This document shows positions 18,780 through 64,000 of a stretch of DNA of 64,000 nt, one piece after another; positions within the stretch are counted from its first letter, which is position 1, and the number at the start of each line of letters is the position of its first letter. The position numbers and the translations under genes are program-made. The notes beneath the pieces were generated by a model, which saw nothing but the letters and a program-made list of their open reading frames with translations, had not been told where the DNA came from and searched no databases. This stretch comes from an uncultured Deferribacteraceae bacterium (GTDB taxonomy: Bacteria > Chrysiogenota > Deferribacteres > Deferribacterales > Mucispirillaceae), in contig CAMRCY010000002.1 in NCBI GenBank assembly GCA_947041165.1, forward strand, positions 1-64,000, given 5' to 3'.

Positions 18780-18821
18780 TAAATCTACTCACTACATAAA
18801 TAGAGATTAGGGGACGCACAA

Positions 18822-20441
18822 ATGCTTAAATTATTTTTCTCACTTTCAATTATATTCTTATACTCAATCAACTCATATGCATTATCAAAAGAAGAAATCG
18901 CTGGCGGTTCAATTAATGCTGTCAACTTCGTTGCTGAAAAACTGTTCGGAAAATCAATCAGATATAATCAAACTTATGGCGACAGTAAAACTGTTGATAA
19001 TAAGAGTGTTGTTGATATTAATATTGATAATATGAGTGCCGACATAATAGTCGTTGATAATCAAACTGCTAACAACCAAATAATTGATAACAAAACATCT
19101 GATAATCAAACTGCTATCAACGAGGCTGAATTAGCTAAAAATGAAGAGGCGATTAAAGAAGCTAATAGATTGAAAGAAGAAGCCGATGCAAAAGCAAAAG
19201 CTGATGAAAAAGCAAAAACCGATGCAATAGCCATGGCTGATGAAAAAGCAAAAGCCGACGCAAAAGCCATGGCTGATGAAAAAGCAAAAGCCGACGCAAA
19301 AGCTAGAAATGATGCAAAAGCTAGAAATAAAGCGAACAGTCAAAACAAAACATATATTGCTAATATCTTTACTGAAGACGTTAATAATTTTAAAATAATA
19401 ATATCTGATAGAAAAAATAAAGAAGTGTCTTTATACCAAATAAATAACGACAAACTAAATAGCATATCAAGTTTTCCTGCTATATATGGATCTAACGATG
19501 GCGACAAAATTCTTAGAGGTGACAATAAAACTCCTCAAGGTGTCTATTATATAACTAACTATATCGATGAAAAAACTTTAATTAGAAAATATGGTTCATA
19601 TGCTCCAGTTTACGGTGAAGGGGCATTCCCTCTTGATTATCCTAATCCGATAGATCGTGCTGAAAACAAAACGGGTGGAGGAATTTGGTTACACGGAAAT
19701 AGTGTTGATGCTAAAAATATCACTCAAGGGTGTGTGGCGATTGATAATAAAAACCTTAATATGATGAAGCAACATGTAGCCGTGACAACTCCTGTTATTT
19801 TAACAGATGACGTTATCTATACAACTAAAGAAGAGTATGATAAAGAGAAAGCAAAATTAATATTATTTGCTCATACATTTATTAACGATAGATTAAAATT
19901 AAACAATAATAAAAACGCTATAAGTAATCTTAAAATCCTTACTGATAACGGTGAAGATTATATTATAGATTTTGATGTTGATAGCTGTATAAACGGGAAT
20001 ATATTATACAATAATATAAAATACTACTTCTCTGATAATGGAAATAGCTTAAAATTACTAGATCAAAAAATCACTTCATTAAAAATTGATGGAACAAAAT
20101 ATCAAGAGATTGAAAATTTTGCAAACAAATGGGCTGCTGCTTGGAAATCTCAAAATATTAACACTTACCTATCTCATTACTCTGAAAAATTTAGATCTGG
20201 TAATCGTAACTTTCAACAATTGAAAAAATACAAAACTGCAATTTTTAAAAGAAATAGTGGACGACCAGTTAACATAAAAATTGAAGTTAATAAAATATGG
20301 ATAAGTAAAGGTAAAATATTTGTACAGTTAAAACAACAGTACTCATCTAGATATATAAACAATACTGGGTATAAAACATTACAATTAATTGGTTGTAACG
20401 GTGATTATTCTATCGTTAAAGAAAGTTGGAATAAATTATGA
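18822..20441 (+). CDS. L,D-transpeptidase/carboxypeptidase, Csd6-like
   Basis: A 539 aa exported protein with a signal peptide (about 1-20) and an Asn/Asp-rich then KA-rich low-complexity stretch (55-175), including three 36 bp DNA repeats at 19203-19310. The YkuD catalytic domain spans about 188-335, with H291 (WLHGNS) and C304 (QGCVAI). A C-terminal NTF2-like domain (about 420-539) follows. This YkuD plus NTF2 layout is that of Helicobacter Csd6 and Campylobacter Pgp2, which trim peptidoglycan tetrapeptides to tripeptides and set helical cell shape. A GGGGAC ribosome site precedes the ATG. The stop overlaps the next gene by 4 bp. Confidence 0.85.
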   Translation: MLKLFFSLSIIFLYSINSYALSKEEIAGGSINAVNFVAEKLFGKSIRYNQTYGDSKTVDNKSVVDINIDNMSADIIVVDNQTANNQIIDNKTSDNQTAINEAELAKNEEAIKEANRLKEEADAKAKADEKAKTDAIAMADEKAKADAKAMADEKAKADAKARNDAKARNKANSQNKTYIANIFTEDVNNFKIIISDRKNKEVSLYQINNDKLNSISSFPAIYGSNDGDKILRGDNKTPQGVYYITNYIDEKTLIRKYGSYAPVYGEGAFPLDYPNPIDRAENKTGGGIWLHGNSVDAKNITQGCVAIDNKNLNMMKQHVAVTTPVILTDDVIYTTKEEYDKEKAKLILFAHTFINDRLKLNNNKNAISNLKILTDNGEDYIIDFDVDSCINGNILYNNIKYYFSDNGNSLKLLDQKITSLKIDGTKYQEIENFANKWAAAWKSQNINTYLSHYSEKFRSGNRNFQQLKKYKTAIFKRNSGRPVNIKIEVNKIWISKGKIFVQLKQQYSSRYINNTGYKTLQLIGCNGDYSIVKESWNKL

Positions 20442-22207: not shown

Positions 22208-22227
22208 TTATCAGCATATAAATACAA

Positions 22228-22845
22228 ATGAATATATTAAACCTTGATAAGTTTTCAATATATCTTATATTAGAAACATCAGCATTAAAAACTAAACTTG
22301 AAGATTTTATAGATCAGGTAGTAGATGCTGGCGTATCAATAATACAGTTAAGAGATAAAGGTTGTTCTGAAAATGAACGGTACCATACATCTTTAAAACT
22401 TAGCCAACTTCTTGAAAATAAAAGTTGTAAATTGATAATCAACGATAGTATCGATATCGCATTATCCGTAAATGCTGATGGAGTTCATTTAGGCATTAAA
22501 GATACTCCGATTGATGAAGTTAAATTAAAATATCCTAACTTGATTTTGGGATACTCATGCAACAATATTCATGATGTCGAGATCGCTAATCAATATGCAG
22601 ATTATATAGGTATCGGACCTGCATTTAAAAGTAGCACTAAGCTTGATACAAGAGAAATTCTTTCAATTGAAGAAATAAATCAGTTGTCAAGAAAATCTAT
22701 CCACCCTTCTTTTGCTATCGGAGGAATTAACGATCTTAATATAGATGTAATACGAAATAACACATCCGTAAGTGGTGTAGCAATTTCGTCATACATAACA
22801 TCAACTCTTACGCCATACGACACTGTTTCCAGATTGCTGAGGTAG
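22228..22845 (+). CDS. thiE: Thiamine-phosphate synthase
   Basis: Joins HMP-pyrophosphate and hydroxyethylthiazole phosphate to thiamine phosphate. It is 205 aa, a TIM-barrel of family length. The motifs IIQLRDK, LIINDSIDIAL, ADGVHLG and IGPAFKSSTK match ThiE substrate loops. It begins 20 bp after the Csd4-like gene and 7 bp before thiL, so it is likely in the same transcript. No TPP riboswitch fits in the short upstream gap. Confidence 0.93.
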   Translation: MNILNLDKFSIYLILETSALKTKLEDFIDQVVDAGVSIIQLRDKGCSENERYHTSLKLSQLLENKSCKLIINDSIDIALSVNADGVHLGIKDTPIDEVKLKYPNLILGYSCNNIHDVEIANQYADYIGIGPAFKSSTKLDTREILSIEEINQLSRKSIHPSFAIGGINDLNIDVIRNNTSVSGVAISSYITSTLTPYDTVSRLLR

Positions 22846-22852
22846 ATTATTT

Positions 22853-23785
22853 ATGAAAGAATTCGAGTTTATAAAACTTATGACATTAGAATTTGGCGGA
22901 GGCATATCTGGTATCGGAGATGATGCTGCTTTATTTGATGACACTCATATTGTTACGAATGACATGTTGATAGAGAACACACACTTTCTTCCTACAACAC
23001 CTATTGACTATGTTATCAATAAACTTTTTACATCAAACGTATCTGATATCGCTGCGATGGGTGGAAAAGCAAAATATGCAATACTATCTATCGCCACTGA
23101 TAACGAACTAAAGTTAGATAAAATTGTTCCAGCTTTAAAATCGCTTTGCGAAAGATATAATATAAAACTGATCGGTGGGGACACTTGTTATAACTCATTC
23201 GGGCTGATCTTATCTATGACGTTAATCGGCACTAAACCGAAAAATCTTTTAACTAGATCTAAAGCATCACCTGGAGATCTATTATTTCTATCTCGTCCAA
23301 TTGGTAAAGCTAAAATATCTTTAGAAACAGAGTTAGGATTATCACAATACAACTGCGATCCTTACTATCATTATAAACTTGAAGCTGAAGATAAATTAGG
23401 TGAAATTCTTGGCACTATACCTGATGTTACATCGTGCATAGATATCTCGGATGGACTTGGAAGAGATGCTGCACATATATCTAGAATGAGTGGTGTGAAA
23501 GTTATTATATATGACAACTATCTGCCTTATGCATATTTAGGGAAATTTCATATAAATAAACAGAGCTATATTTTAACATCTGGAGAAGAGTATGCACTTC
23601 TATTTACTATATCCAAAAATGTAATTGAAGATGTTATACCTAAAATTGTTTCATCATCAGGTTGTAACGACATCATACTTATTGGTAAAATAGAACAAGG
23701 TAGTGGAACATTTTTAAAATGTGAAAACGGTATGATGAAAGATATCTCAACTGCTGGATTTGAACACTTCAATAAAAATAGATAA
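22853..23785 (+). CDS. thiL: Thiamine-monophosphate kinase
   Basis: Phosphorylates thiamine phosphate to thiamine diphosphate, the cofactor needed by IlvB encoded further on. It is 310 aa. The PurM-like ATP site shows as GIGDDAAL at about 21-28 and MLIENTHF at 43-50, with GGDTCYNS near 107 and DISDGLGRDAAHI near 197. It lies directly after thiE, so the two consecutive steps are encoded together. Confidence 0.95.
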   Translation: MKEFEFIKLMTLEFGGGISGIGDDAALFDDTHIVTNDMLIENTHFLPTTPIDYVINKLFTSNVSDIAAMGGKAKYAILSIATDNELKLDKIVPALKSLCERYNIKLIGGDTCYNSFGLILSMTLIGTKPKNLLTRSKASPGDLLFLSRPIGKAKISLETELGLSQYNCDPYYHYKLEAEDKLGEILGTIPDVTSCIDISDGLGRDAAHISRMSGVKVIIYDNYLPYAYLGKFHINKQSYILTSGEEYALLFTISKNVIEDVIPKIVSSSGCNDIILIGKIEQGSGTFLKCENGMMKDISTAGFEHFNKNR

Positions 23786-23880
23786 GCTTTTTTTCTAGTA
23801 AAAAAATGACAAAAACATTATACTATTTAAGTAATTCTTTTTGTTAATCTCTAATTAGTAATAAAATTTAAGGAACTATA

Positions 23881-25398
23881 ATGGTTATTAAGCTATCCAA
23901 AATTATAGATAAAGCAACTTTACCTCTGATATTTAGAAATATCTACAATCTAGAGGCGAATGAGTTTACTATCGATTCAAACAAAGATTATAACTTTGTG
24001 AAAATAGATACAAACAAAAATATAGATACTATCTTAAAAATTGATATATTGCAAAGTGGTTTTTACGCAGCCTTAACGTTGCTTCCTCCTATCAATATTG
24101 AAACTCGCATGGATAAAAAAACTATTATCGGTATAATTACTGATGATTATAAAATTGAAGAAAAATATATTAATGATCAAATTCTTGATACATTACTTGA
24201 ATCATACAACAATAACATATTAGTGTTTAGAGAAATATTTGCAGATGGAGTGCCTCCAAAAAGAGGTACTAATGTTAGTATAAAAGTATATTTTGATTTA
24301 GAGATATCAAAACCAAAAGTTTTAGCTAATGGACAAGTTAATTTCAAAGATCTTAAACAATATGTTTTTGTAAAAGAAGGAGATATCCTTTTAAAAAAGA
24401 CACACCCAATAGAAGGCATTCCTGGTGTATCTGTTAACGGAAAAGAACTTCCTCCACCACCTGTTAAAAATAAAGAGATAAACGCATTGACAGGTGTCAC
24501 TGTTAGCGAAGACGGCACAACCTATACGGCAGCATACGCTGGACAACTTCTTTTCTATAACGACAACATTACAATTAATCCATTTTTAACAATCACCGGT
24601 AACCTTGATTACAAATCTGGAAACATAGTATTTGGTGGGACAGTTGATGTTACAGGTGACGCTCTAGCAGGATTTTCTATAAATGCAGACAATATTATTA
24701 TCCAAGGTATATATGAAGATGCGATATTGAATGCTGAAAACTCTATCAGTATCAAAACTGGAATAAAAGGTAAAAACAAAAATGGTGAAATTGTTGCTAA
24801 AGGCACAGTTTTTTCTAGATATGCAGAGAATGCAAAAATAAATACTTTTGGTGATGTTGAGATAGAAAAATATTGCTATAACTCAGATATTGTTGCCAAT
24901 AGAATTATATGTAATTCATCTGCATCGGTTGTGGTTGGTGGAAAATTAATTGCAACTTCTGAGATAAATCTTTTTAGCGCTGGATCAAAAGGTAGCAATG
25001 ATATGTTACTTCATGCTGGCATATCACCAACTCATAAAAAAGAAGCAGAAAAGTTAATTACTGAAATAGATAAATTAAATAAATCTATGAATGAGATGAA
25101 AAATGTTTTATCTAAATTAGATTTAACAGATCCAAATATTATAAACAATCCGAAAGTTAAAAAAATATTAGATGCGATAAAGGTTTTAAAAACTCGTCTA
25201 CCAGCTATTCAAGATAAGTATAATGAGCATAAGAAAAAATCTGTTAATATAGATGCTACAATTATAATCAATGGAGTGATCCACCCTGGAGTGACTATAA
25301 AATTTGTTGACTCATTTATGATCGTACCAACTGAGATGAGTAAGGTTAAATTTTATTACGATAAACTTAGTAGTGAAATTAAATTTGTGAATTTATAA
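23881..25398 (+). CDS. FapA (DUF342) domain protein
   Basis: A 505 aa cytosolic protein with an N-terminal non-conserved region (1-140), then the FapA domain with its glycine-rich right-handed beta-helix: PIEGIPGVSVNGK, LTITGNLDYKSGNIVFGG, VDVTGDALAG and YSKAKINTFGD-like turns. A coiled coil follows at about 385-450, then a final beta-helix strand (INGVIHPGV). FapA proteins are polymerising or envelope-associated factors of uncertain role (Vibrio FapA regulates glucose PTS, and homologues occur near flagellar genes). It is preceded by a 95 bp spacer. Confidence 0.8.
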   Translation: MVIKLSKIIDKATLPLIFRNIYNLEANEFTIDSNKDYNFVKIDTNKNIDTILKIDILQSGFYAALTLLPPINIETRMDKKTIIGIITDDYKIEEKYINDQILDTLLESYNNNILVFREIFADGVPPKRGTNVSIKVYFDLEISKPKVLANGQVNFKDLKQYVFVKEGDILLKKTHPIEGIPGVSVNGKELPPPPVKNKEINALTGVTVSEDGTTYTAAYAGQLLFYNDNITINPFLTITGNLDYKSGNIVFGGTVDVTGDALAGFSINADNIIIQGIYEDAILNAENSISIKTGIKGKNKNGEIVAKGTVFSRYAENAKINTFGDVEIEKYCYNSDIVANRIICNSSASVVVGGKLIATSEINLFSAGSKGSNDMLLHAGISPTHKKEAEKLITEIDKLNKSMNEMKNVLSKLDLTDPNIINNPKVKKILDAIKVLKTRLPAIQDKYNEHKKKSVNIDATIIINGVIHPGVTIKFVDSFMIVPTEMSKVKFYYDKLSSEIKFVNL

Positions 25399-25496
25399 AT
25401 AGATTATCGTATGATTACAGTTTTATTACAGTTTGAGAATTGAATATTTTTATAATATTACTATTTGATATTGTTCATGGCTGTATGGCTGTATTA

Positions 25497-51421: not shown

Positions 51422-51479
51422 AATAACTACATAGTGTTTCGTTATAAATAATTGTAGTAACAAAGTTGAGGTGATAAGA

Positions 51480-52184
51480 ATGCCTAGAATATTATTTTTT
51501 TCAGGTGCAGGATTATCGGCAGATAGTGGTCTTGCGACATTTCGTGATAGTAACGGGTTATGGGATAAATACGATCCATCAGTTGTTTGTAACTATAATA
51601 ACTGGAGAGAGAATTATCATCTCGTACACGAATTCTACAATCTAAGAAGAACAGAGTATGAAGGTGCTGAACCAAACAAAATGCATCTATTCATAGCTGA
51701 GATGCAAGATAAGTATGGTGCTAAAGATGTTGATGTTGTTACGCAGAATATCGATAACTTATTAGAAAAAGCGTTAGTGAAAAATGTTACACATCTACAT
51801 GGACGTATAAATTATATTCATTGCGTAGATTGTAATGATGAGTTTGAAATAAGAATTGAATTTGATAGTAAAAACTACACATGTAAAAAATGTGGATCAA
51901 AAATATTTAAACCATCGATTGTTTTTTTCGGCGAGATGGCACCTATGTATCAATCTATGTATGAGTCATTTTCAAAACTCACTAAGGATGATATATTAGT
52001 TGTTGTTGGCACAAATGGAAATGTTATACCTATCGCATCTATTGCATCACAGCTTAGTGCTACAAAAATATTATGCAACCTTGAAAAGTCGCAACATATT
52101 GATGCTAAAATATTCGATCATGTGTTTTATAAACGTGCAGAAGAAGCAGTTGTGGATATTAGAGCACTTCTTGATACTCATTAA
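51480..52184 (+). CDS. Sirtuin NAD-dependent deacylase (CobB-type)
   Basis: A class III-like sirtuin removing acyl groups from lysine with NAD+. The ATG at 51480 is preferred because GAGGTG lies 6 nt upstream, giving 234 aa; a GTG at 51471 would add three residues. Motifs: FFSGAGLSADSG, TQNIDNLLEKA, catalytic THLHG, and four zinc cysteines (CVDC and CKKC). The FYNLRR segment has the Tyr and Arg that mark desuccinylase/demalonylase-type sirtuins, so acidic acyl groups may be removed too. Confidence 0.93.
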   Translation: MPRILFFSGAGLSADSGLATFRDSNGLWDKYDPSVVCNYNNWRENYHLVHEFYNLRRTEYEGAEPNKMHLFIAEMQDKYGAKDVDVVTQNIDNLLEKALVKNVTHLHGRINYIHCVDCNDEFEIRIEFDSKNYTCKKCGSKIFKPSIVFFGEMAPMYQSMYESFSKLTKDDILVVVGTNGNVIPIASIASQLSATKILCNLEKSQHIDAKIFDHVFYKRAEEAVVDIRALLDTH

Positions 52185-52693: not shown

Positions 52694-52834
52694 CTTTAAA
52701 TCTATCACTAAAAATTAGTTTTAAATTTATATTTCAAAACATATCAATTTTTAAATCTACTTTTCTAATACATTCAATTTCTAAATCTACTTTTCTAATA
52801 TAGCCTAATTTCTAAATCTATTTCTCAAATACAA
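52694..52834. repeat. Tandem repeat, about 30 bp unit, running into the encapsulin stop codon
   Basis: Clear units at 52745, 52775 and 52805 read caatttctaaatctactttt then ctaatacatt. The third contains the encapsulin stop codon and last codons (ctatttctcaaatac). Two more diverged units precede them from about 52694. The array extends downstream from the gene end. Confidence 0.85.
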
Positions 52835-53630
52835 CTATTGCTTCTGGTTTTTTAATTCTTGGAAGAACAGTTTCTATTATACGAAACGAATGATTTAAAT
52901 CTTTCTGCTCTAAATATGCAGTAACTATATCTTGTCCGATTGCTAAATCAATATACTGTGGCTCTGAACAGATAAGAACTGCTTGTTGTCCTTTTAATAT
53001 AGGAACTCTAAATAAACCACCTAACTGCTTCGCAATTCTGTCAACCTCTAAAAGTCCTGTGCCTGTTTGAATTCTTTGAAGATTAACATATAACTCTGGA
53101 CTTACACATAAAAAAAAGTGTCCGATTAATCCTTTGCTGATAATCATGTTAACGCCTTTAACGATATCCATAAATGCGTTTTCGCCCTCTTTCCAATCTG
53201 ATATTGCAACTTTTTGAACACCAGGTGCATTCATTATTCCATCAGTTTTTAGAAACTTGTTACCGAAAAATATCAACGAATCTTCAAGATTAGTAATCTT
53301 ATGTGTTGCCTCAATTACCGCTGTTAAGTCTAGTGGTAAACCTGTTGAGAAATGATTTTCAATATCTCTCCATAATATACTAAAATCTGCATATATTTGT
53401 GGAAGTTCTACAAATGTTCTTCCAGTTGTCTTAACTATTCCATTCTCAAATTCTTCATTTCTAACCATTTTATCGTAAGAAACATTAATAGCACCTGAAC
53501 CTAAAGGTCCATAAACTGTTAAAAATTTTCTACCATTTAAATGGTTTCTAGCTGTCTCAACTACAATCGAATCAATCTGTTTCCAGAAATCTTTTTTTAT
53601 AGGAGCCCCATCCCTTGAAAGGTAATCCAT
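52818..53630 (-). CDS. Family 1 encapsulin shell protein
   Basis: Self-assembling HK97-fold nanocompartment protein, 270 aa, the normal length for Linocin_M18/encapsulin. The N-terminal MDYLSRDGAPI, the WKQIDSIVVETARNHLNGRKF helix, GRTFVELPQIYADFSILWRDI and GLLEVDRIAKQLG are familiar positions. The C-terminus ends VVFEK. It lies 14 bp after the ferritin-like cargo gene, the standard cargo-then-shell order. It encloses the cargo by binding its C-terminal peptide. The shell probably sequesters iron oxidised by the cargo. Confidence 0.96.
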   Translation of the reverse strand: MDYLSRDGAPIKKDFWKQIDSIVVETARNHLNGRKFLTVYGPLGSGAINVSYDKMVRNEEFENGIVKTTGRTFVELPQIYADFSILWRDIENHFSTGLPLDLTAVIEATHKITNLEDSLIFFGNKFLKTDGIMNAPGVQKVAISDWKEGENAFMDIVKGVNMIISKGLIGHFFLCVSPELYVNLQRIQTGTGLLEVDRIAKQLGGLFRVPILKGQQAVLICSEPQYIDLAIGQDIVTAYLEQKDLNHSFRIIETVLPRIKKPEAIVVFEK

Positions 53631-53644
53631 AATATTCTCTCCTC

Positions 53645-54136
53645 CTATTTTTTAAGTAAACTGCCTACTGTTAATTTATTCACTAATACAGATTTATCTT
53701 CTGATTTTTCATCAGAACCACAACCACAATCTGCTTCACCGCCACAACAAGATGATTTATCACCATGTGTGTGCCCATCATCACCGTGTGAGTCATCACA
53801 TGATGCGATTAACTTACTTGGGATCTCTCCAGATTTAATACCTAGATCTTCCATCATCTCTCTTACTTCAGATTCTCCACCTGCAAAAAACTCTGCTTCT
53901 TTAGGATCTAAATATCTAAGTAAAGTTGTTAACTCACCAACGTGAGCTTTCTCTTCATCTCTAATATCACCTAAAACAGTTTTCACAACTATATCATCTG
54001 TTGCAAGAATATGAGCTTCATATAAATATATAGCCTCTAACTCTGCTGCTATATCAAGTCTAATAGCTTGTATTAGCTCTTGTTTAGTAATCTTACGATT
54101 CACATTGCCTGCGAATGGATTTGCAAAACTTGCCAT
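53645..54136 (-). CDS. Encapsulated ferritin-like cargo with Cys/His-rich linker
   Basis: A 163 aa cargo protein. Residues 18-98 form two antiparallel helices. E32, E34, Y39, E62 and H65 align with, and carry the same numbers as, the ferroxidase residues of Rhodospirillum EncFtn. The C-terminal LTVGSLLKK is a classic encapsulin loading peptide. Residues 112-140 form a linker with four adjacent or spaced cysteine pairs and histidines (C113, H117, H122, H124, C130, C131, C137, C139), which should bind metal and is unusual for this family. A GGAGG ribosome site precedes the ATG. It is followed by the shell gene. Confidence 0.93.
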   Translation of the reverse strand: MASFANPFAGNVNRKITKQELIQAIRLDIAAELEAIYLYEAHILATDDIVVKTVLGDIRDEEKAHVGELTTLLRYLDPKEAEFFAGGESEVREMMEDLGIKSGEIPSKLIASCDDSHGDDGHTHGDKSSCCGGEADCGCGSDEKSEDKSVLVNKLTVGSLLKK

Positions 54137-54208: not shown

Positions 54209-55363
54209 TTATTCTGCTACCTGATTTAGCAAATATCCGTACCCCTCTGATACCATTTTAGATTTTGGAACAAATCTAAGTGAAGCACTATTAATACAGT
54301 ATCGCATCCCACCACTTTCTTTAGGTCCGTCATCAAATAGATGTCCTAAATGCGAGTTACTACCACTGCTTTTAACCTCAGTTCTTTCCATTCCAAAACT
54401 TTTATCAGTACTATCTGTTATTAAGTTTTTATCAATTGGTTTTGAAAATGATGGCCATCCTGATGATGAAGCAAATTTATCCTTCGATAAAAATAACGGC
54501 TCTCCAGTTGTCACATCAACATATATCCCTTCTGCTTTATTATCCCAATACTCATTTTTAAACGGTTGCTCTGTCTTATTTTCTTGAGTAACATCATATT
54601 GTAATTTTGTTAATTTTGATTTTAACTCTTCATCACTCAACTTTTTATACTCCTTTGATGGAGAAGTTGAAACTTCATCACTACTTGTTTTAGAACTTAT
54701 ATTGTCTTTAGATTTCTTTGCATCTTCAAACTCTGCTTTACCTATATGACAATAGCCATCAGGATTTTTATCTAAATAATCTTGATGATAATCTTCTGCT
54801 TTATAGTAATTATTAACTGTCATCACTTCAATCGCAATAGGCTTTTTATAATCCTTTGAAACTCTTTTTACAAAATTTTCTGCAATCTTTTTCTCTACAT
54901 CGCTATCATAATAAATACCTGTTCGATACTGACGTCCTACATCATTGCCTTGCTTGTTAAGTGATGTTGGATCGACAACTTTTTTATACATATCAAGTAT
55001 AAAATCTAGTGATACTTTCGTTGGATCATAAACTATCCTAACACCCTCTGAAGCATCTGATGAGCCTGATGTAACATCTTTATATGTTGGATCAGCTGTT
55101 TTAGAATTAACATATCCAACATCTGTAAACACAACACCATCTATATATTGAAAGTATTTTTCAACACCCCAAAAACATCCACCAGCCACTATTATCGTAT
55201 CATATTTGTCAGGAGAAAAATCTTCGTATTTCATATCTTTATTCACCACAGCCGTATATTCAGGCTCACTCTTTAAATCGTTTGCGTAACTACTGCTATC
55301 TCGTTTACAACTAGCAAATAGTGATAACATTATTCCTAACATTAATACATATATTATTTTCAT
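54209..55363 (-). CDS. MsrA-MsrB fusion methionine sulfoxide reductase, predicted lipoprotein
   Basis: Repairs both stereoisomers of oxidised methionine in exported proteins, 384 aa. The lipobox LFASC puts the lipid-anchored Cys at 19. MsrA domain (about 52-215): [11 protein letters not shown] with catalytic C63, and [10 protein letters not shown]. MsrB domain (about 240-384): [17 protein letters not shown] (H338, H341) and RYCINSASL (C356, N358). An electron donor such as DsbD is not in the window. It lies 72 bp upstream of the encapsulin cargo gene and may share its transcript. Confidence 0.96.
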
Positions 55364-55428
55364 AATTCTTTCTACCTAATTCCTTAATATCTACTTTATC
55401 TTATTATGCATCATAGATTAAAAGTGCT

Positions 55429-56022
55429 TTATTTAGACACCTGATTTAATAAATATCCGTACCCTTCTGATACCATTTCTGCTTTAGGAATAAATCTTAA
55501 CGATGAACTATAAAGACAGTATCTTTTCCCACCTTTATCTTTAGGCCCATCGTAATATAAATTTCCTAAATGTGAGTTTGTAATACTGTTTTTTACATCT
55601 GTTTTATTTACGCCATCTTTATTTGACAAAATATTTATTACAAAATTTTTATCAATTGGTTTTGTAAATGATGGCCAACCAGTTCCTGAATCGAATTTAT
55701 CTTTAGATAAAAATAACGGCTCTCCTGATATCACATCTACATATATACCCTCTGCCTTATTATCCCAATACTTATTTTCAAACGGTTTCTCTAACTTAAT
55801 TTTTTCCGTAATATCACTCTGTAATTTAGTTAACTTTGATTTTGAAACTTCATCACCCATCGCCTTATATCCCTTTTTTGCAGATACAGGAACTTTATCG
55901 TTACTAACACCAGTCGTAGCCTTTAACTCACTATTTAATTCATTTGCTAAAACAGTTTGTTCAAAACCTACAACAGATAGTGACAACGATATTCCTAACG
56001 CTAATACATATATTGTTTTCAT
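55429..56022 (-). CDS. Degenerate MsrB-like paralogue of the neighbouring MsrAB
   Basis: A 197 aa protein with a signal peptide (cleavage likely near residue 27) but no lipobox. Its sequence follows the MsrB half of the adjacent MsrAB closely, including [18 protein letters not shown] and GWPSFTKPIDKN, and even its signal peptide (MKxIYVLxLGIxLSL). C169 in RYC remains, but the catalytic histidine is Asn (SHLGNLY, N154) and the Asn after the Cys is Tyr (Y171). It is therefore probably an inactive or altered MsrB. It lies 65 bp upstream of msrAB. Confidence 0.85.
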   Translation of the reverse strand: MKTIYVLALGISLSLSVVGFEQTVLANELNSELKATTGVSNDKVPVSAKKGYKAMGDEVSKSKLTKLQSDITEKIKLEKPFENKYWDNKAEGIYVDVISGEPLFLSKDKFDSGTGWPSFTKPIDKNFVINILSNKDGVNKTDVKNSITNSHLGNLYYDGPKDKGGKRYCLYSSSLRFIPKAEMVSEGYGYLLNQVSK

Positions 56023-56110: not shown

Positions 56111-57853
56111 CTATCCGAAACACTTATTAACAAAAATCAGATCGCTATCACCACCACTATCAACCGAAATACTTAACCCGTTATTTATATCTGTTGTAGT
56201 ATTATTCACTAGCTCAAACATATCTATATCTAAATTATCTTCTACACTCACCGTAGGTAAACCATCTGCTGTACTTGGAGGCATAGGATTAAAATACCTG
56301 CTACACGATGTTGCAATTTCAAATTTTTCTACAATATTATATAGATAATAAACTAGATTATTATATGTGATAAAACTTCCTATCCGTGGACTTCCTGATA
56401 TTGTGCTTTCATATGATTGAGAGCCATATAGTGTAATATAATCTGTGCTATCAAAACTGATTATATTATTGACATTTTCTTTACACTCAGTATCATTATC
56501 CAACCCATCACACTCTTGATGTTCATATTTATAATGAAACACAAAATATAACTCTTTCTTATTTACTCCACCAATTGACACAAAATCTAAATTATTATAT
56601 ATAGGATAAGTTTTAATAATTCTCCATAAACCATTTTCATATACACTAACTTCTGAGCCTATCGGTGCAAAATTATTATCTGATGTGCTATAAATGTAAT
56701 GTATCGCACCATCAATAATATCTACGCTAAATGCTGTAACTTTTAAATCTGTAGGAGGTGTAATTGTTACATAATCAAGAGTTGTGTTATCGATAAAATC
56801 ATCAACTATAATTTTTAATAATTTACTTTCGTTATCAATGTATGATGTTATCACTGTGCCGTTATCATAAATTTTTATAATAGGTTGTGAAACATTTTCA
56901 ACGCCATTAAAATAATCTACAAAACTTGCAACTTCATCAACAGTTCCATTATCTTTCTTAAACATGCTAAGGTTATCATCAATATCAACATATGCTACAA
57001 ATATATCTTGAGCTTTATTTGTGGCTATTGTTGAGTAAATAGCGTTAATACCTAGACCGTTACCTTCTGTTAAAGTTCTACCTTTTACTGTTTTATTTAG
57101 TTCATAGACTTCAATTTTTTCATCATCCTTGATGTATGTCATCGTTGCATTATCACCGAGTGGTGCAACACTATGATATCCTGTTGTCTTTCGTGCAGGA
57201 GCTGGCAGAGCAGTACTATTATCAATCTCCTCATCTCTCCAACTTCCATTAACTAAAGTATAACCTTTTATGATACTTCTATTATCACTATCTGTGATAG
57301 TGGCGATTGAGTAAAGTGTTCCTGAGTTTGTTACTGTTGCCGAGAGTCCTGTGTTTTCCATATACTTATCATTAGACATAGTGTTTGCAAGCTCGACATT
57401 AATTCCCTTAAGATTAGTCGCTCTATTTTCTTCAATAAACTCCACATCTGTTTGGTTATAATAATATTCACCATCATTATAATATAATTTCATACCTATA
57501 GCTTGTTGATCATCATTCTCATCTAGAATTATCTCAACTCCAAAATAATTAAAATAAGTTTGAGATTCCTCATGATATCCATTTGCATAAATTGCTTTTG
57601 TATAATCAATCGAGTCTACATAATGTCCGATAATTAATTTCTTGTTTGTCACATCATAACCATATATCTGACCTGAAGGAAGCTCTACTGTTACATTTCC
57701 ACCTAACACAACAAAATACCACTCATTACTTGCAGCTAATACTCTAAATGTGTCGCCTGGATCTTCTTCACCACTATAAGAACACGATGTAGTGAATGTA
57801 ATAATTATCAACAACATATATATATAAAATTTCTTAAACACAATTATCTCCAA
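56111..57853 (-). CDS. Large predicted lipoprotein with one shared repeat module
   Basis: 580 aa. The N-terminus has a hydrophobic signal and TTSC lipobox (Cys 24). Residues about 60-150 contain one copy of the AIY...YFGVEI...DVEF module shared with the two lipoproteins at 59.7-64 kb. The remaining 430 residues are rich in Tyr, Asp and Asn, with repeating beta-strand-like segments that suggest a propeller. No enzyme motif was found. It is likely an outer-membrane or surface lipoprotein. It is followed after 88 bp by the MsrB paralogue. Confidence 0.6.
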   Translation of the reverse strand: MEIIVFKKFYIYMLLIIITFTTSCSYSGEEDPGDTFRVLAASNEWYFVVLGGNVTVELPSGQIYGYDVTNKKLIIGHYVDSIDYTKAIYANGYHEESQTYFNYFGVEIILDENDDQQAIGMKLYYNDGEYYYNQTDVEFIEENRATNLKGINVELANTMSNDKYMENTGLSATVTNSGTLYSIATITDSDNRSIIKGYTLVNGSWRDEEIDNSTALPAPARKTTGYHSVAPLGDNATMTYIKDDEKIEVYELNKTVKGRTLTEGNGLGINAIYSTIATNKAQDIFVAYVDIDDNLSMFKKDNGTVDEVASFVDYFNGVENVSQPIIKIYDNGTVITSYIDNESKLLKIIVDDFIDNTTLDYVTITPPTDLKVTAFSVDIIDGAIHYIYSTSDNNFAPIGSEVSVYENGLWRIIKTYPIYNNLDFVSIGGVNKKELYFVFHYKYEHQECDGLDNDTECKENVNNIISFDSTDYITLYGSQSYESTISGSPRIGSFITYNNLVYYLYNIVEKFEIATSCSRYFNPMPPSTADGLPTVSVEDNLDIDMFELVNNTTTDINNGLSISVDSGGDSDLIFVNKCFG

Positions 57854-58015
57854 TTTTTAAAACAATTAAATGATAGCTACCATAATAATATAGTAACCAA
57901 TCGAACTTATCACAATAGATAAATATAGAACAAACTGAGAGTATCTAATAAATCAATCTATTAGACCAAACTGCTGACTTATTAGACAACAGTTGTTGAA
58001 ATGTTTTGACTGTAA

Positions 58016-58039
58016 TTTTCATAAATTAATTTATGAAAA
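58016..58039. promoter_or_regulatory. Perfect 24 bp palindrome
   Basis: Ttttcataaatt is followed by its exact reverse complement aatttatgaaaa. It lies between the GLUG lipoprotein stop (58100) and the start of the next lipoprotein (57853). It could be an operator or an AT-only terminator. A weaker inverted repeat (tctaata...tattaga, 57944-57965) lies beside it. The rest of this 246 bp spacer shows nothing else. Confidence 0.5.
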
Positions 58040-58099
58040 GAGAACCACTTAATAATAGAACCATGATACCTATATTAAGTTCAATGAAGTCTACTTTGT

Positions 58100-59374
58100 C
58101 TACTCATCAGGTTCTGTTGCTTTTTTACAAGGCCCAATTAATCTCTCAACAATAACTTTATCATCTATATCTAATATCCATTTAAGGACAGGACATTTAT
58201 CTTGCATTACCCATATATTATTAAAATCCCACTGATTAAAATTATACGAGTTATTATATTGTTTAGAATCCATCTCAGCACCTGCATCATTTGATTTAGG
58301 CTTACCGATAGCTTTCAAATCACCATCTCCTAAATAATAGTTATCAACATAAACGCTATGAGTATTATTATCCACTTTGCCGATAATTTTCCCAACTGTT
58401 TCAACAGATGCTGATGGAGGAAATAATTTGCCGTAGCTATGTGTATTCATTAAAGCAATCTCTTCTTGCACATTGCCTATAATTCCTCCAAGACTTCCCC
58501 TGCCCATAAGTTTTGCTAAGTTTGAAGAGTTCTCAACTTCGCACCTAAAGCAAGCACCAATTATACCACCTGCAAATAATCCTCTTATTAATTGTCCATT
58601 ATTTTGAGAGAGTGAAACCGATGTGTCCATACCATAACCTGCTATGCCACCTACGCTCATGTCACCACTAATCTCTCCAAGATTAACTGAGTTAGTTATA
58701 TCTAACCCTGTAGCGTGCCCAACAATTCCACCAACTCCATTTCCACGACCATAAACCTTGCTGAGATTTGTAGCAAACTTGATCGTTACATTATCTGCAA
58801 CACCTACAATGCCACCAACTTGATCTTCTGAACCTGTAACAGTAACATTGCTATTTCTAACATTTATTAGTTTAGCGTTTTGTGCCCATCCAACTATTCC
58901 ACCTACCGATTGTTTCCCCTTAATACTGCCATTTTTTATCGTTAAATCCTTTACTGTTCCATTATCAAGAAGTCTCCTGATTAAGCCAACCTTGTCATAA
59001 ACGATACTTATATATATATTAGAAATAGCTTTATTGTTGCCATCTAATGTACCTTGAAATACCGCCATACCATACATAGATTTATTATCCAGATCTATAT
59101 CATTAACAAGAATAATTGTATCCTTATCGTAAGTTATTGAATCATTATCATTTGGCCTTTTTATTATCCATGCAAAATGAGTTGCATCAGTTACATAATA
59201 CGTTCTACTCTCTTCATCATATCTCGGTTCATTGATAGTTTTGCCATCCCATGGAAGTGATGGAAGATTGTATGGATCGTTAACTCCACCTGCATCTGAA
59301 TCATCAAAACCAAATATACCACATGATATTAATAAAAAAGATAAACTTAAAATAACAAGCCTTTTATAAAACAT
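58100..59374 (-). CDS. Predicted lipoprotein with GLUG repeats
   Basis: 424 aa. Lipobox LLISC with Cys at 18. Residues about 110-310 contain five to six GLUG-type repeats of the pattern VGGIVG...N...G, for example VGGIVGWAQNAKLIN, VGGIVGVADNVTIKF, VGGIVGHATGLD and VGGIAGYGMD. These form a beta-solenoid in other surface proteins. No protease motif is visible. It is probably surface-exposed, but its partner is unknown. The neighbours are also predicted lipoproteins on the same strand. Confidence 0.75.
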   Translation of the reverse strand: MFYKRLVILSLSFLLISCGIFGFDDSDAGGVNDPYNLPSLPWDGKTINEPRYDEESRTYYVTDATHFAWIIKRPNDNDSITYDKDTIILVNDIDLDNKSMYGMAVFQGTLDGNNKAISNIYISIVYDKVGLIRRLLDNGTVKDLTIKNGSIKGKQSVGGIVGWAQNAKLINVRNSNVTVTGSEDQVGGIVGVADNVTIKFATNLSKVYGRGNGVGGIVGHATGLDITNSVNLGEISGDMSVGGIAGYGMDTSVSLSQNNGQLIRGLFAGGIIGACFRCEVENSSNLAKLMGRGSLGGIIGNVQEEIALMNTHSYGKLFPPSASVETVGKIIGKVDNNTHSVYVDNYYLGDGDLKAIGKPKSNDAGAEMDSKQYNNSYNFNQWDFNNIWVMQDKCPVLKWILDIDDKVIVERLIGPCKKATEPDE

Positions 59375-59449
59375 AAGCTATACAAACCTCTTCATAACAT
59401 AAATAATAAAACAACAGATATCTTCGTACTGAAATAACCTGCTCTTTAT

Positions 59450-59523
59450 AAAACATAAACTCCAAAAATATAAACTGCAAAAACATAAACTACAAAAACA
59501 TAAACTGCAAAAACCTAAGCATT
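59450..59523. repeat. Tandem repeat, five 15 bp units
   Basis: Units of aaaaacataaactgc lie between the GLUG lipoprotein and the 775 aa lipoprotein gene (spacer 59375-59702). The string ctytttataaaacataa also occurs at the GLUG gene start (about 59361-59376) and just before the array (about 59443), suggesting a duplication of the gene's 5' end. The spacer also holds the terminator listed next. Confidence 0.85.
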
Positions 59524-59573
59524 GATAATCTAAATCATTAATTAAAGATATAACCAAACTTAACTATTCAACT

Positions 59574-59617
59574 TAATAAGAAAATAAGTAGCAAGCACAT
59601 TCAAGTACTCGCTACTT
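59574..59617 (-). terminator. Rho-independent-like terminator after the 775 aa lipoprotein
   Basis: On the minus strand aagtagcgag pairs with cttgctactt (10 bp, one G-T) around a 12-base loop and is followed by attttctt. It lies 86 bp after the stop of the lipoprotein gene at 59703. Confidence 0.75.
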
Positions 59618-59702
59618 ACTTATATTATTAATACACTATAGATTTTTAAACTAAACTATAAAAAACAACTTCTTTACTTATTACACTCAAACTTGTTTTT
59701 AA

Positions 59703-62030
59703 TTAAAATAAACCAGGAGTAACAGCTAATTTAAATGCTCCACCATCTTTCATATTCAATTTCATAACTTTAAGTTTGCCATCATCTGAAATATAAGATA
59801 TATGGATATCACCTGTTGGTAAAACTTTATCTGTATCCGTTGCATAAGGATCTAAATTAACAGCTTTAACTTTATCAGAGTTATCTACTATAGTGATACC
59901 TGGAACTACTACTGTACTGCCTATAGGTATCTCAATACTTACTGTCTTTTCACCTGCAAAAGCTGCTAAACTGCCACTCTCTGTAATTCTTAATGGTGTT
60001 AAAATTAACTTACTAGCCTTGTTATATAAAAAGTAAAGATTATCTCCCTTTGATATAAGTTTTGCATCAACAAAACCAGCACCCGTTATCGTAGGTAATA
60101 TCTGCTTCGTCCATGCAGGCTTAACACTGTTTGAGTTATAGAGATATATATCAGTCCCACTACTTACCGTAGTAACAGCGTATAATCTTCCACCTGCATA
60201 AGCTAGTGAAATAGTATTAGTGTCAACACTATCAACAGGAGGCAATCCAGTGCCTGTTATCTCTGTGCCCCATGCACCAGGTGTAGGTTTAACATCAAGA
60301 AAAGATGTAGACACTGAGAACTTATTACCACCCTCAGTAGTTAGACCAGCTGTAAACAATTCATTTTTATCTACAACTATTGTTTGAACAATATCTTGAT
60401 CATGCTTGATAACATACTCACCACCTGTGATTATGGTTTCTTCACCATCAACACCTTCAGTACTTCCACTACTTGCAACATAAAGCTTATCGTTAGCCGT
60501 TACTGTTACTAAGCCAGTAACCTTGTCTGCCCTTACATTACGTTTTACATCTATAAAACTACCGCTATCTATTGATCTACCGCTATCTATTGAACTCACA
60601 GGAGATAACCCAGGTTTTAATTTTAAGGTTGTAACCTTCTTAGTAGTATTATTTATTACTGTAGCTAAAATATCTTTGCCTATAGATTGTAATGATGAAC
60701 TAATAACCTTATATCCAGCAGTTGTGCTTGAGTCCCACTTTGGATTATCAGATTTATCTATTGTATACGATAGTGTAATATTATCAGCACTTGTTTGAGA
60801 AAGAACATAAGTTACATTATCAGCTATAAGAGTTGAAATTTCTGAGTTTGGCACAATCACTTCATTACCACCAACAACTTTAGCAGTACCGCCTTCCATA
60901 CCAACAAACCTTGTAGCTAGTACAGAATCATCTTCATCAACATATTCAACATGTTGAGTGTGATCCCAAAATTGCACAACATTCTCTTTATTTTTAAAAT
61001 ATATATTTAATTTTTTATTTTCATTGGTATTTCCAGATATTTTAATACCTACATATTTATCTTCTAATTCACCTGAATTAGCATCTTTATATATCGCTTT
61101 AGTAGGATCAGTAAGATTATCTTGACGCAGATAAGTAAATAAAGCTTTCGTATCTGTACTGTTCGTGATAGTTCCATTATCATGAATATTAGCACCGCTA
61201 TCTTCTAATGCAAATTCATAACCATCTTTTCTAGCATAATCGATAAACGTCTTAGGAAAAACATCTACATTAGCATGGTCTTCATCAAATCTGACATCAG
61301 TACCTTTACTCCAAAACTTAGATTCGTTATTATGATTATTGAAATAAAATCTTAGATCCTTGTTATCTCCCTCTCCAACAATTTCTACTCCTAAATAATT
61401 ATTACCTTCAGATTTATAAATTGCTTGATCAGCTACTTTAACCCCAACCGGAATATCAGTATATTCAAATATCACTATGCTTTCATCATGATAATAAACA
61501 AGAGTACCTTGTTTTAATAAATTGACATAAGAATCATCTTTTGTATAAATATATTTTGTTTTAGGTGCTAAATCTAAAAATTCTACCTGATTTACAGAAA
61601 CGTTATCTTTCTGTGAACGTCTCAGATTGATATCATCTGTATTAGTCCAGTAATAGCCACCACTGACTTCTTCGTCAAAAACAAATTCTAAAACTTTATT
61701 TTTACCTGTGCCGATAATATTCACAACAAAAAATCTATTTAAAGTTTCTCCAGGTAGTTGAGCATTATAAATCGCCTTAGAGTTATCACCCTCAAACTGC
61801 TCTACATAACTATAAACCGCAAAAGCTTTATCTTTAGCCATTATAGAACCGTTATCAACTAAGTGAAGCGTTGTATTATCATATATCGGTGAACGATAAT
61901 TATCCATCGCTGCGAACTCAGTGAAGTTATCAAACGAGCTTGCCCCAGGTGCAGCTTCTTGTGTGCAGGATATTAAAAAAGTTGCCGTAACTAATCCTAG
62001 AATTTTAATTTTATCAAATCGCTTAAACAT
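59703..62030 (-). CDS. Large predicted lipoprotein with three copies of a shared module
   Basis: 775 aa. Lipobox FLISC with Cys 22. Residues about 55-165, 166-275 and 279-378 are three copies of a module with a KAIY core, then a G-V-E-I type strand, F-Y-F, and F-W with a DV-x-F ending (for example YLGVEI...FYFNN...FWSKGTDVRF). The following 400 residues contain repeated beta-strand segments rich in Asp, Ser and Thr, possibly a propeller. I do not recognise the module. It is paralogous to the partial gene at 62358. Confidence 0.65.
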   Translation of the reverse strand: MFKRFDKIKILGLVTATFLISCTQEAAPGASSFDNFTEFAAMDNYRSPIYDNTTLHLVDNGSIMAKDKAFAVYSYVEQFEGDNSKAIYNAQLPGETLNRFFVVNIIGTGKNKVLEFVFDEEVSGGYYWTNTDDINLRRSQKDNVSVNQVEFLDLAPKTKYIYTKDDSYVNLLKQGTLVYYHDESIVIFEYTDIPVGVKVADQAIYKSEGNNYLGVEIVGEGDNKDLRFYFNNHNNESKFWSKGTDVRFDEDHANVDVFPKTFIDYARKDGYEFALEDSGANIHDNGTITNSTDTKALFTYLRQDNLTDPTKAIYKDANSGELEDKYVGIKISGNTNENKKLNIYFKNKENVVQFWDHTQHVEYVDEDDSVLATRFVGMEGGTAKVVGGNEVIVPNSEISTLIADNVTYVLSQTSADNITLSYTIDKSDNPKWDSSTTAGYKVISSSLQSIGKDILATVINNTTKKVTTLKLKPGLSPVSSIDSGRSIDSGSFIDVKRNVRADKVTGLVTVTANDKLYVASSGSTEGVDGEETIITGGEYVIKHDQDIVQTIVVDKNELFTAGLTTEGGNKFSVSTSFLDVKPTPGAWGTEITGTGLPPVDSVDTNTISLAYAGGRLYAVTTVSSGTDIYLYNSNSVKPAWTKQILPTITGAGFVDAKLISKGDNLYFLYNKASKLILTPLRITESGSLAAFAGEKTVSIEIPIGSTVVVPGITIVDNSDKVKAVNLDPYATDTDKVLPTGDIHISYISDDGKLKVMKLNMKDGGAFKLAVTPGLF

Positions 62031-62260
62031 CTCTGTATTCTCTCTCTTTTTTCTTTCTCATCAGTTTTAGACATATATCAACATCAATGTTCTATCGTTA
62101 AACCAATAGTTATATTTAATAATATAAGTGAATGATACTATAATGTCAAAAAAAAAATCAATTATTTGATTTTTTTTATTCTCAAAACATTATTAATTAC
62201 ACTATTACTATATATTTACTCGATAATAAATAAGTTTTATGATATTCAACAGATCGTAAA

Positions 62261-62293
62261 TTAAAAAGAGGATGAGCATAATACCCACCCTCT
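62261..62293 (-). terminator. Terminator after the partial lipoprotein gene
   Basis: On the minus strand agagggtggg pairs with ctcatcctct over ten positions (three G-T pairs), loop tattatg, followed by a TTTTT run. It lies in the 327 bp spacer 62031-62357. The rest of that spacer is AT-rich with no gene that I can see. Confidence 0.8.
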
Positions 62294-62357
62294 CTATTAT
62301 AATTAGTAATTTATAGTTACTAAAATTTTAACTCTTTACTTTTTACTCTTTAGCAAA

Positions 62358-64000
62358 CTAAAGAGGCATTGTATATGATTTACTGTAAAGCATTGGATTG
62401 CTGTATTTAAGATCTTCTGGAGATCCATCTCCAACATAAACTTTAAATATTCCCATACCAGGTAGCGCAACTACACCAGGAACAATCGCAGCCTCTTCTC
62501 CAACAGGATCACTCTCAGCTAATTTTGTAACAGTATTTGCCGTAGTATCAACATGATAAACCTCAGTCATAGCATCTGTTCTTGTAAAGTAAACAGTTGT
62601 CTCATCAGCTACTATAGAAGTAGTTACCGCATTAGATACAACTGAACCTACAACTTCAGTCCATACATAAATATTATCTCTAGGATCGTTATCTTTATAC
62701 ATTTTCTCACCACTAACAACATACAATGCAGTACCTATTGCAAATAGTTTGATATCAGCAGTAGTAGCAGGAAGATTTCCAGTTATATTTGACGGAACAG
62801 ACTCTGCAGTCATTTTATTAATCACAGGAGTAGTTGCGTTCATAATACCACCGATAAAAACATCTGTACCTATTGTAACTACTGATTTAGGATCCATAGC
62901 TTTAGTATCAGAATATAAATTTTTACCTGTCTGAACACCGTCAACAGTTACTTTACTAAGTGCTGCTTGATTAGAGGCTAAAGTTGCAATAAAGAAACCA
63001 TCGTTATCATTAATTGATCCAGCACCTATTGCATAACTTTCACATAAAACTTTCTGGTTTGAAGAAACTAGTGATATCGGATCTCCATTAGATTTAAAGA
63101 ACTCAACATTTGCAAATCCTGCATCCACTCCATCTTGAACAGCTAAGAACACATCATCACCGATAAATTGTAACGAAGTAGATATCATATTATCAACGAT
63201 TGTTCCAGTAACATTTGAGCTTGTTGTAGTTACTGTTTTACCGTTTATAACATTTTTAAATAATGTACCACCAGAATTAAGAGTCTCATTATCTGCAAGT
63301 GTGTATGCGATATTATCTTTATACACTGTTGAAACAGCTCCATTAGTTTTTACATTTGCCTGTGTAAGTGTTGCAGTTGGAATTGAATTATCTGTTACTC
63401 CAAATCCACCGTTAATAGTTCTTGTAGCTAACAGAACACCGTTAGCTGATGCGAATTTAACATCTGCCATATTTGCCCAGTAAGCACCAGTAGCAGTTGT
63501 ACTATTATCAAAATAGAAGTTTAATTTAGCGCCATCAACTTCAACACCGAAATATTCATCTGCATCAGGATTTTTATAAACAGCTGTAGTTGATGTTTTT
63601 TCCTCTGCGACTGTATAAGTTTTAGTATTAAAAAGTATATCGCCAGCTGTAGGAGTTGTATCACCAAGTTTAGTTAATGTTCCTTCTTTTGTAATAACAA
63701 GTTGATACGACTTACCAGCAACATTCTCTTTGAAACTTTGTTCAGGAAGAGATGTCCCTGCTTCTGTAGTAAACACAACTGTATCAGCTGTCGCAAAATA
63801 TGTAGGAGCTGAAGCCGTACCATTTACATAAAATTTTATCACTCTTGGACTTGCTGTATTTACTAACTCAATACCTAAAAACTCATTAGGGTCTAATACA
63901 TTTGTGCTTTGATACACAGCATGAGTTTTATTATCACTAAGTTTATTGTTGTATGTAAATAAAATATGATTACCTGCATCAACCACATTACCATCAATTA
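62358..64000 (-). CDS. Large predicted surface protein, 5' end beyond the window
   Basis: The reading frame stays open to the right edge, so the start is outside. A GTG at 63986 is inside the module (its preceding residues read IDGN) and is not the real start. At least 547 residues are visible. Two copies of the shared module come first (for example EFLGIELV...IKFYVNG, EYFGVEVDG...YFDNS...YWANMADVKF). A Ser/Thr-rich part with beta-strand repeats follows, aligning loosely with the C-terminal half of the 775 aa lipoprotein. A signal or lipobox is expected upstream. Confidence 0.6.
   Translation of the reverse strand, partial: IDGNVVDAGNHILFTYNNKLSDNKTHAVYQSTNVLDPNEFLGIELVNTASPRVIKFYVNGTASAPTYFATADTVVFTTEAGTSLPEQSFKENVAGKSYQLVITKEGTLTKLGDTTPTAGDILFNTKTYTVAEEKTSTTAVYKNPDADEYFGVEVDGAKLNFYFDNSTTATGAYWANMADVKFASANGVLLATRTINGGFGVTDNSIPTATLTQANVKTNGAVSTVYKDNIAYTLADNETLNSGGTLFKNVINGKTVTTTSSNVTGTIVDNMISTSLQFIGDDVFLAVQDGVDAGFANVEFFKSNGDPISLVSSNQKVLCESYAIGAGSINDNDGFFIATLASNQAALSKVTVDGVQTGKNLYSDTKAMDPKSVVTIGTDVFIGGIMNATTPVINKMTAESVPSNITGNLPATTADIKLFAIGTALYVVSGEKMYKDNDPRDNIYVWTEVVGSVVSNAVTTSIVADETTVYFTRTDAMTEVYHVDTTANTVTKLAESDPVGEEAAIVPGVVALPGMGIFKVYVGDGSPEDLKYSNPMLYSKSYTMPL

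Follow-up and report, generated by a model that had tools for sequence, protein, structure and literature searches.

A family of tandem lipoproteins, found in one genus, combining a repeated module of about 100 residues with a predicted beta-propeller in uncultured Deferribacteraceae

The stretch of DNA analysed here (the window) comprises positions 1 to 64,000 of contig C2 (CAMRCY010000002.1) of an uncultured Deferribacteraceae bacterium (GCA_947041165.1; 2.14 Mb in 70 contigs, probably a metagenome assembly). Near its end, it encodes three members of a family of tandem lipoproteins that carry one or three copies of a module of about 100 residues, followed in all but one type by a C-terminal region related to a predicted beta-propeller. 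These proteins are tentatively interpreted, with a little less than an even chance of being right, as a diversified repertoire of outer-membrane lipoproteins in which the modules form a stalk and the C-terminal domain a ligand-binding head. The family comprises an uncharacterized domain and protein architecture, and forms a repertoire of eleven genes in a gut lineage about which little is known.

The module is confirmed as real by profile search: the 580 aa protein has a single copy, the 775 aa protein has three, and the gene cut by the end of the window has two inside it and a third just beyond it (C2:64092-64403). The profile spans 102 positions and was built over five rounds from three seed copies, picked out by eye in a 714 aa paralog encoded beyond the window on the same contig; in total, it recovers 66 copies in 29 listed sequences. 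Since this first profile had trained on the proteins that it scores, control profiles were trained with the whole test group held out. These score the 580 aa copy at 19.7 bits (E 5.7e-5), the 775 aa copies at 68, 62 and 58 bits and the partial-gene copies at 55 and 44 bits, compared with a top score of 8.4 bits among 900 residue-shuffled sequences (300 for each of three proteins). With the same held-out profiles, no unrelated window protein (open reading frames of at least 130 aa) exceeds 1.5 bits. Chance similarity is rejected on these scores, which bear out an earlier sequence-only reading of this DNA that had proposed such a module in three lipoproteins, in one, three and at least two copies, and had called for a check that the copies are more alike than chance. 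Copies within one protein share 22-36% identity (seven three-module proteins of this genome). The genes had also been described as adjacent, which holds in that they are tandem paralogs but fails in the strict sense, given that a gene for a GLUG-motif lipoprotein outside the family lies between the 580 aa and 775 aa genes (Table 1).

Scans of Pfam, NCBIfam, PHROGs and PDB sequences reject a known curated domain for the module. The three window proteins pass no curated Pfam cut-off, nor do 18 three-module proteins (best E 0.029 in Pfam and 0.12 in NCBIfam) or 38 single modules (best E 0.014 in Pfam). The best E in PHROGs, a library without a cut-off, is 0.029, and PDB sequences yield nothing at E ≤1 for the full-length profile and a best E of 0.18 for the modules; scans of the 580 type covered Pfam and PDB, and those of other one-module proteins covered their modules only. 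The suspicion that the module is not a known domain thus stands for the libraries searched. Judged by its sequence, the module is novel and its combination with the head is new to these libraries; lipoproteins, propellers and expanded surface families are each already known.

Structure prediction of one copy, as proposed in the sequence-only reading, gives a small all-beta model with eight strands of at least three residues by DSSP and weak fold similarity at best among the matches listed. The copy folded was the third module (M3) of the 723 aa gene, with five residues added at each end and 36 aligned copies, and the model reaches a predicted local distance difference test score (pLDDT) of 80.8 (five models, 69.2-80.8) and a predicted template modelling score (pTM) of 0.76. 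Foldseek returns no PDB match below E 0.86 and no viral-protein match below 0.45. Among the VIA matches listed, the highest Z scores belong to a designed barrel (5.6), a Bacteroides lipocalin (4.9) and the streptococcal lipoprotein SP_0198 (4.2), where Z below 8 may mean merely a common arrangement. The predicted fold weakly resembles calycins, which are up-and-down barrels of eight or ten strands. Lipocalins carry an N-terminal GxW motif; this motif is present in none of 38 module copies.

The C-terminal domain had been overlooked in the sequence-only reading. An AlphaFold model was made for the 714 aa protein of a congener (G002), the ortholog of an array gene and 91% identical to the copy in the present genome (G000), using 14 aligned sequences (mean pLDDT 84.4; pTM 0.59). 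Residues 366-705 of this model match solved propellers at VIA Z 21-24 among the best 50 matches listed, including YncE (Z 22.9, root-mean-square deviation 3.3, 284 residues aligned), the PLL5 lectin (22.7, 3.2 and 292) and leptospiral Lp49 (21.4, 3.5 and 287). With the whole model, Foldseek gives 480 PDB matches at E ≤0.001, led by multi-propeller proteins (LRP2, DDB1; template modelling scores 0.2-0.3); the VIA matches listed for this model all fall on the propeller and barely test its other parts. A beta-propeller is a ring of four-stranded blades; the region contains 27 strands and the folds that best match it are presumably seven-bladed, as the propeller itself probably is in this model. 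Both folds are predictions, resting on one model each. The propeller fold is extended to the other members through sequence relation, by which all non-580 members have a propeller-related C-terminus. In the 775 aa protein, this region shares 23-28% identity with paralog propellers, and its 234.7-bit score was obtained with a profile alignment that itself contained the protein. For the C-terminal region of the 580 aa protein, no relation to the family propeller was detected (hhalign probability 0.2%), and comparison of 580-type C-termini with PDB sequences yielded weak matches only (E 0.069 and 0.1).

A hydrophobic leader with a lipobox-like cysteine is present in all 28 of the 29 listed sequences that retain their N-terminus, with lipoboxes read by eye rather than by a signal-peptide predictor. 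The cysteine is at position 21-28, or at 40 in one sequence with an upstream alternative start; for L009_1951, L034_4994 and L035_215 the script gave an earlier cysteine (17), and their lipobox (AG/C) is at residue 25. In none of these proteins is the cysteine followed by aspartate. Under the +2 rule for lipoprotein sorting, known from E. coli, a residue other than aspartate at this position makes sorting to the outer membrane likely.

The three window genes are one end of a longer array that extends to C2:78064. Beyond the 775 aa gene it encodes proteins of 723, 723, 709, 714, 706, 510 and 511 aa, the first being the gene truncated in the window and the second being measured from its longest start (717 aa from another in-frame start). 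Together with two genes on contig C6 (514 and 717 aa), these nine array genes give eleven lipoproteins with 25 module copies, seven having three and four having one. Among the 26 complete listed proteins of four species, 18 carry three copies, eight carry one and none carries two; this count excludes three of the 29 listed sequences that are cut by contig ends and show three, one and none. Drifting module number is rejected on these counts, and the changing module number inferred in the sequence-only reading is not borne out.

The full-length profile matches four of 50 genomes of the phylum, namely all four of one genus and none of the other 46, and the module profile has the same genus-only distribution; with the 714 aa protein alone as query, four of 59 relatives match. 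The genus probably belongs to the Mucispirillaceae, as a sister of Mucispirillum. Outside the phylum, no match was found in 291 and 39 genomes of two other phyla, in searches that lacked a positive control. A contig scan for relatives produced 34 candidate stretches, none of them of the family, and a scan with one short pattern produced three loci, all labelled 'uncultured Deferribacteraceae bacterium'. Phage or plasmid origin is rejected, with tblastn of the 714 aa protein finding no match in 72,556 plasmid and 50,697 phage records. No description of the family was found in the literature, where no search was aimed at its sequence features.

Comparison of close paralogs suggests how the two parts of these proteins have evolved. 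Across the ten pairs of five core array paralogs, identity is 50-65% in the first module (M1), 45-73% in the second (M2), 37-59% in M3 and 28-54% in the propeller. In every pair the propeller is less conserved than either M1 or M2, and in eight it is also less conserved than M3. Thus, among close paralogs, the conserved part by sequence is the end adjoining the membrane anchor, as expected of a conserved stalk with a varied head. When the divergent C6 and 775 aa proteins are included (21 pairs), the ranges are 31-65% (M1), 22-73% (M2), 23-59% (M3) and 23-54% (propeller). A tree of 65 of the 66 module copies (one cut copy left out), in which columns are few and long branches may join, places M1 copies in one clade (support 96/80) and core M3 copies with six single copies in another group (97/94). 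Placed elsewhere, on long branches, are the three 580-type copies together with M2 and M3 of the 775 type. With M1 forming one clade and single copies grouping with core M3 or, for the 580 type, apart, the module triplication is old, with whole genes multiplied since. The single module of the 514 aa C6 protein is 69% identical to M3 of its 717 aa neighbour and 24% identical to its M1 and M2, and the leaders of the two are nearly identical, making loss of M1 and M2 likely there.

In the present genome, the array is flanked by tRNA-Ser(GCT) and hrcA on one side and by msr genes on the other. In all four genomes of the genus, the hrcA side has a family gene (just its start in two), the msr side has the 580-type gene and the GLUG gene, and the middle differs. 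In two genomes of the same taxonomic family but another genus (G005 and G011), neither of which yielded a family gene, the tRNA gene is within ~1 to 3.5 kb of hrcA, and the msr gene is ~250 kb distant in G005 and on a separate contig in G011. The order 706-714-709-723b-723a-775-GLUG-580 (genes named by protein length) in G000 corresponds to 709-723b-706-714-723a-775-GLUG-580 in G002. Since G002 has no match to window positions 9000-25400, where G001 and G003 match at 83-88% in long pieces, the divergence baseline was taken from the hrcA-side contig. Synonymous divergence (dS) between G000 and G002 is 0.365, 0.400, 0.210, 0.305, 0.376, 0.336 and 0.089 in seven hrcA-side genes and 0.41-0.45 in two msr genes, the G002 array and msr values all coming from one G002 contig. 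Within the array, propellers of 723a, 706 and 723b have dS of 0.028, 0.017 and 0.038 and their modules 0.218, 0.088 and 0.274; modules and propeller have 0.33 and 0.43 in 709 and 0.30 and 0.09 in 714, and values reach 0.89 in 580, 0.71 in GLUG and 0.73 in the 775 modules. Identity also changes inside genes, as in 723a, where it is 87-97% along most of the module part and 97-100% along most of the propeller part. The differing gene order and mosaic synonymous divergence make recombination between related species likely in the array. The rapid expansion proposed earlier is better described as gene duplication plus between-species recombination.

Side observations concern genes at and around this locus. 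The GLUG lipoprotein is 52% identical to its G002 ortholog and has the highest nonsynonymous divergence (dN) of 12 pairs compared (dN 0.37, dS 0.71). The two C6 genes (L009 1951-6164) share a 126-base identical tract in their propellers, despite 66% protein identity there, and gene conversion between them is possible from the sequences. In G001, a fused C5-methyltransferase/HpaII-type restriction endonuclease gene lies between hrcA and the family-gene start at the contig end (L036 4802-6754), which suggests that the site takes up other genes. The msr genes adjoining the array in the window (54209-56022) encode an MsrA-MsrB fusion and an MsrB-only protein; the second, MsrB-only match is present in three congeners and absent in six relatives of the same taxonomic family examined. 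They adjoin an encapsulin shell gene (Linocin_M18, 220.8 bits) that follows an EncFtn-like gene scoring below cut-off (52818-54136), forming an oxidative-stress neighbourhood, and a SIR2-family protein (143.5 bits) is encoded at 51471-52184.

Array genes, including the GLUG gene, are spaced by 246-384 bases, and their regulatory regions suggest separate expression. By eye, a hairpin with a T run is seen after all array genes except the 580 aa gene (eight of nine) and after the two C6 genes. A scan of a 20 kb stretch (L001) found 15 terminator-like sites compared with 5.2 in shuffles, five of the array-gene hairpins being listed on the gene strand, and the pattern GATGAGTGTNATGCTCATC occurs five times in the 20 kb with up to three mismatches, compared with 0.01 expected. 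Promoter-like sites are not in excess in this stretch (134 vs 119.5, standard deviation 10.6); of the five 11-of-12 sites, four are upstream of family genes. As most of the array genes are followed by a terminator-like hairpin and four are preceded by a promoter-like site, they look like separate transcription units. Upstream regions of family genes show no likeness except at the end adjoining the start codon. On the minus strand, ten consecutive T residues (T10; 62148-62157) lead directly into the -35 part of the promoter-like site upstream of the 775 aa gene, and no other simple-sequence tract meeting the thresholds was found.

Table 1. Positions of family genes, their parts and associated sites in the window
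Feature	Position	Strand	Basis
580 aa lipoprotein: lipobox TTS/C, one module, 437 aa C-terminal region	56111..57853	minus	open reading frame, profile
Module of 580 aa protein (aa 36-144)	57422-57748	minus	profile match
GLUG-motif lipoprotein gene, not a family member	58100..59374	minus	domain scan
Terminator-like hairpin after 775 aa gene	59582..59621	minus	terminator scan
775 aa lipoprotein: lipobox LIS/C, three modules, propeller-related C-terminal region	59703..62030	minus	open reading frame, profile
C-terminal region of 775 aa protein, related to predicted propeller of paralog	59703..60926	minus	234.7 bits to propeller profile
Module M3 of 775 aa protein	60927-61247	minus	profile match
Module M2 of 775 aa protein	61272-61580	minus	profile match
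Module M1 of 775 aa protein	61608-61925	minus	profile match
T10 run meeting promoter-like site (TTGACA, 17, TATATT) upstream of 775 aa gene	62121..62157	minus	sequence scans
Terminator-like hairpin after partial gene, of a type common to other array genes	62265..62295	minus	terminator scan
3' part of 723 aa family gene, continuing to C2:64529	62358..64000	minus	open reading frame
C-terminal region of 723 aa protein, related to propeller modelled in paralog	62358..63437	minus	sequence relation
Module M3 of 723 aa (partial) gene	63438-63734	minus	profile match; copy folded alone
Module M2 of 723 aa (partial) gene	63756-64058 (window stops at 64000)	minus	profile match

In the interpretation tentatively favoured here, a signal peptide with lipobox would lead to lipidation, and sorting to the outer membrane would be the likely fate of the lipidated proteins. 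One or three small beta-barrel modules would then serve as a stalk for a C-terminal propeller (probably seven-bladed, in all but the 580 type) acting as a ligand-binding head, whose most likely ligand would be a glycan or protein from the host gut or from microbes living nearby. The array genes would act as separate transcription units, with the repertoire diversified by whole-gene duplication, rearrangement and between-species recombination. Paralog comparison and the 580 type together suggest a stalk with exchangeable heads. Surface-receptor function is the best-supported guess rather than a result, with adhesion a possible role for the family. A bolder proposal, which is doubtful, is that the new small barrel is an interchangeable lipid-anchored stalk, with one genus of Mucispirillaceae swapping heads and stalks across species at a tRNA-adjacent hotspot and each species thereby acquiring its own surface receptors for the vertebrate gut.

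Several observations weigh against the stalk-and-head interpretation. Where the 775 aa protein is one of the paralogs compared, the modules are as variable as the propeller. Between species, nine ortholog pairs of G000 and G002 were compared: conservation is higher in the C-terminal than in the N-terminal part in four (723a, 714, 723b and 775), the same in 706 and lower in the other four (709, 580 and both C6 genes). The 714 aa model, at its pTM of 0.59, does not fix the placement of the modules relative to the propeller. A LolA homologue is encoded in the genome (41.4 bits, cut-off 23.6), but its presence says little, since two archaeal controls (of 14) match the LolA Pfam family as well. With respect to recombination, one of the seven hrcA-side genes also has low dS (0.089), indicating that the process is not confined to the array, and the four genomes are probably metagenome assemblies, three of them with contig ends within the array, such that chimeric assembly could mimic part of the mosaic. 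The T10 run at a promoter-like site and the between-species comparison, which does not favour a variable head, slightly lower the confidence in this interpretation and slightly raise that in antigenic variation.

Three other explanations account for parts of the same evidence. The proteins may instead remain at the periplasmic face of the outer membrane, with a role in envelope assembly or scaffolding, which is unlikely. BamB is a propeller lipoprotein of envelope assembly, and the family likewise combines a lipobox-like leader with a propeller, while dN/dS is below 1 in nine family gene pairs; nothing argues directly against this position, no search for surface-export machinery having been made. 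However, eleven divergent paralogs with mosaic divergence, found in just one genus of the phylum, would be unusual for housekeeping scaffolds. It is less probable that the propeller is catalytic (e.g. glycosidase- or lyase-like) with the modules as accessory carbohydrate-binding domains, which is the most improbable of the three. Enzymes do occur among the listed fold matches, headed by the alkylating enzyme CylK (Z 23.7) and including virginiamycin B lyase (Z 21.3), and one of 18 members has a sub-threshold Pfam match to Glyco_hydro_97 (E 0.029). Yet no enzyme family exceeds its cut-off in Pfam or NCBIfam, propeller identity among core array paralogs is as low as noted above (28-54%), and the invariant columns past residue 365 (L417, L447, Q448, Y589 and Y630) are unlike a catalytic set.

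Antigenic or phase variation, in which the array would be a store of variants whose expression is switched to escape host immunity, falls between these two and is rather improbable. The tandem divergent paralogs, rearranged order and mosaic divergence are compatible with it, as are the T10 run in the -35 part of the 775 aa gene's promoter-like site, through which that gene could conceivably be switched, and the identical tract of the C6 paralogs, which hints at gene conversion or recent duplication. In contrast to this expectation, all eleven members in the present genome are complete open frames and no silent cassettes are apparent, with neither module nor full-length profile matching anything else in the genome. 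The hairpins and promoter-like sites described above also speak against it, the only exact 16-base inverted arms are two local palindromes, and T10 is the sole simple-sequence tract over thresholds. No gene pair has dN/dS above 1: gene-wide values over nine whole family gene pairs are 0.26-0.70, with half genes reaching 0.95 on few changes. The earlier suggestion of immune evasion consequently finds no specific support. If the heads are surface receptors, as the favoured interpretation would have it, the array offers a direct handle on niche and partner choice in the gut, and its mosaic marks where species exchange genes; if the proteins are periplasmic, they represent a large unexplained investment in the envelope.

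The closest known systems resemble single parts of the family. The propellers of YncE (3vgz) and Lp49 (3bws) are like its predicted fold at residues 366-705 (Z 22.9 and 21.4), but identity is 9-10%, no PDB sequence is related at E ≤1 and the N-terminal modules lie outside the listed VIA matches. The sugar-binding PLL/PHL lectins of Photorhabdus (8q83 and 5mxh) match to a similar extent (Z 22.7 and 22.4) at 6-9% identity; many unrelated propellers fall within 1-2 Z units, and the comparison is one of overall fold. For the module, the calycin-type proteins BACOVA_00364, of the lipocalin family (4gzv), and SP_0198 (3ge2) share a small all-beta meander (Z 4.9 and 4.2, with 83 and 74 residues aligned), though they lack a sequence match and Foldseek finds nothing in PDB below E 0.86. 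At the level of the repertoire, the lipoprotein family was not found in the 46 other phylum genomes examined, among which Termitispirillum may or may not be included. These ectosymbiotic Deferribacterota are reported to have an expanded flagellin repertoire of up to 40 variants (PMC12887300). Like the present family, it is an expanded paralogous surface-type repertoire in gut Deferribacterota, built in that case from flagellins rather than lipoproteins.

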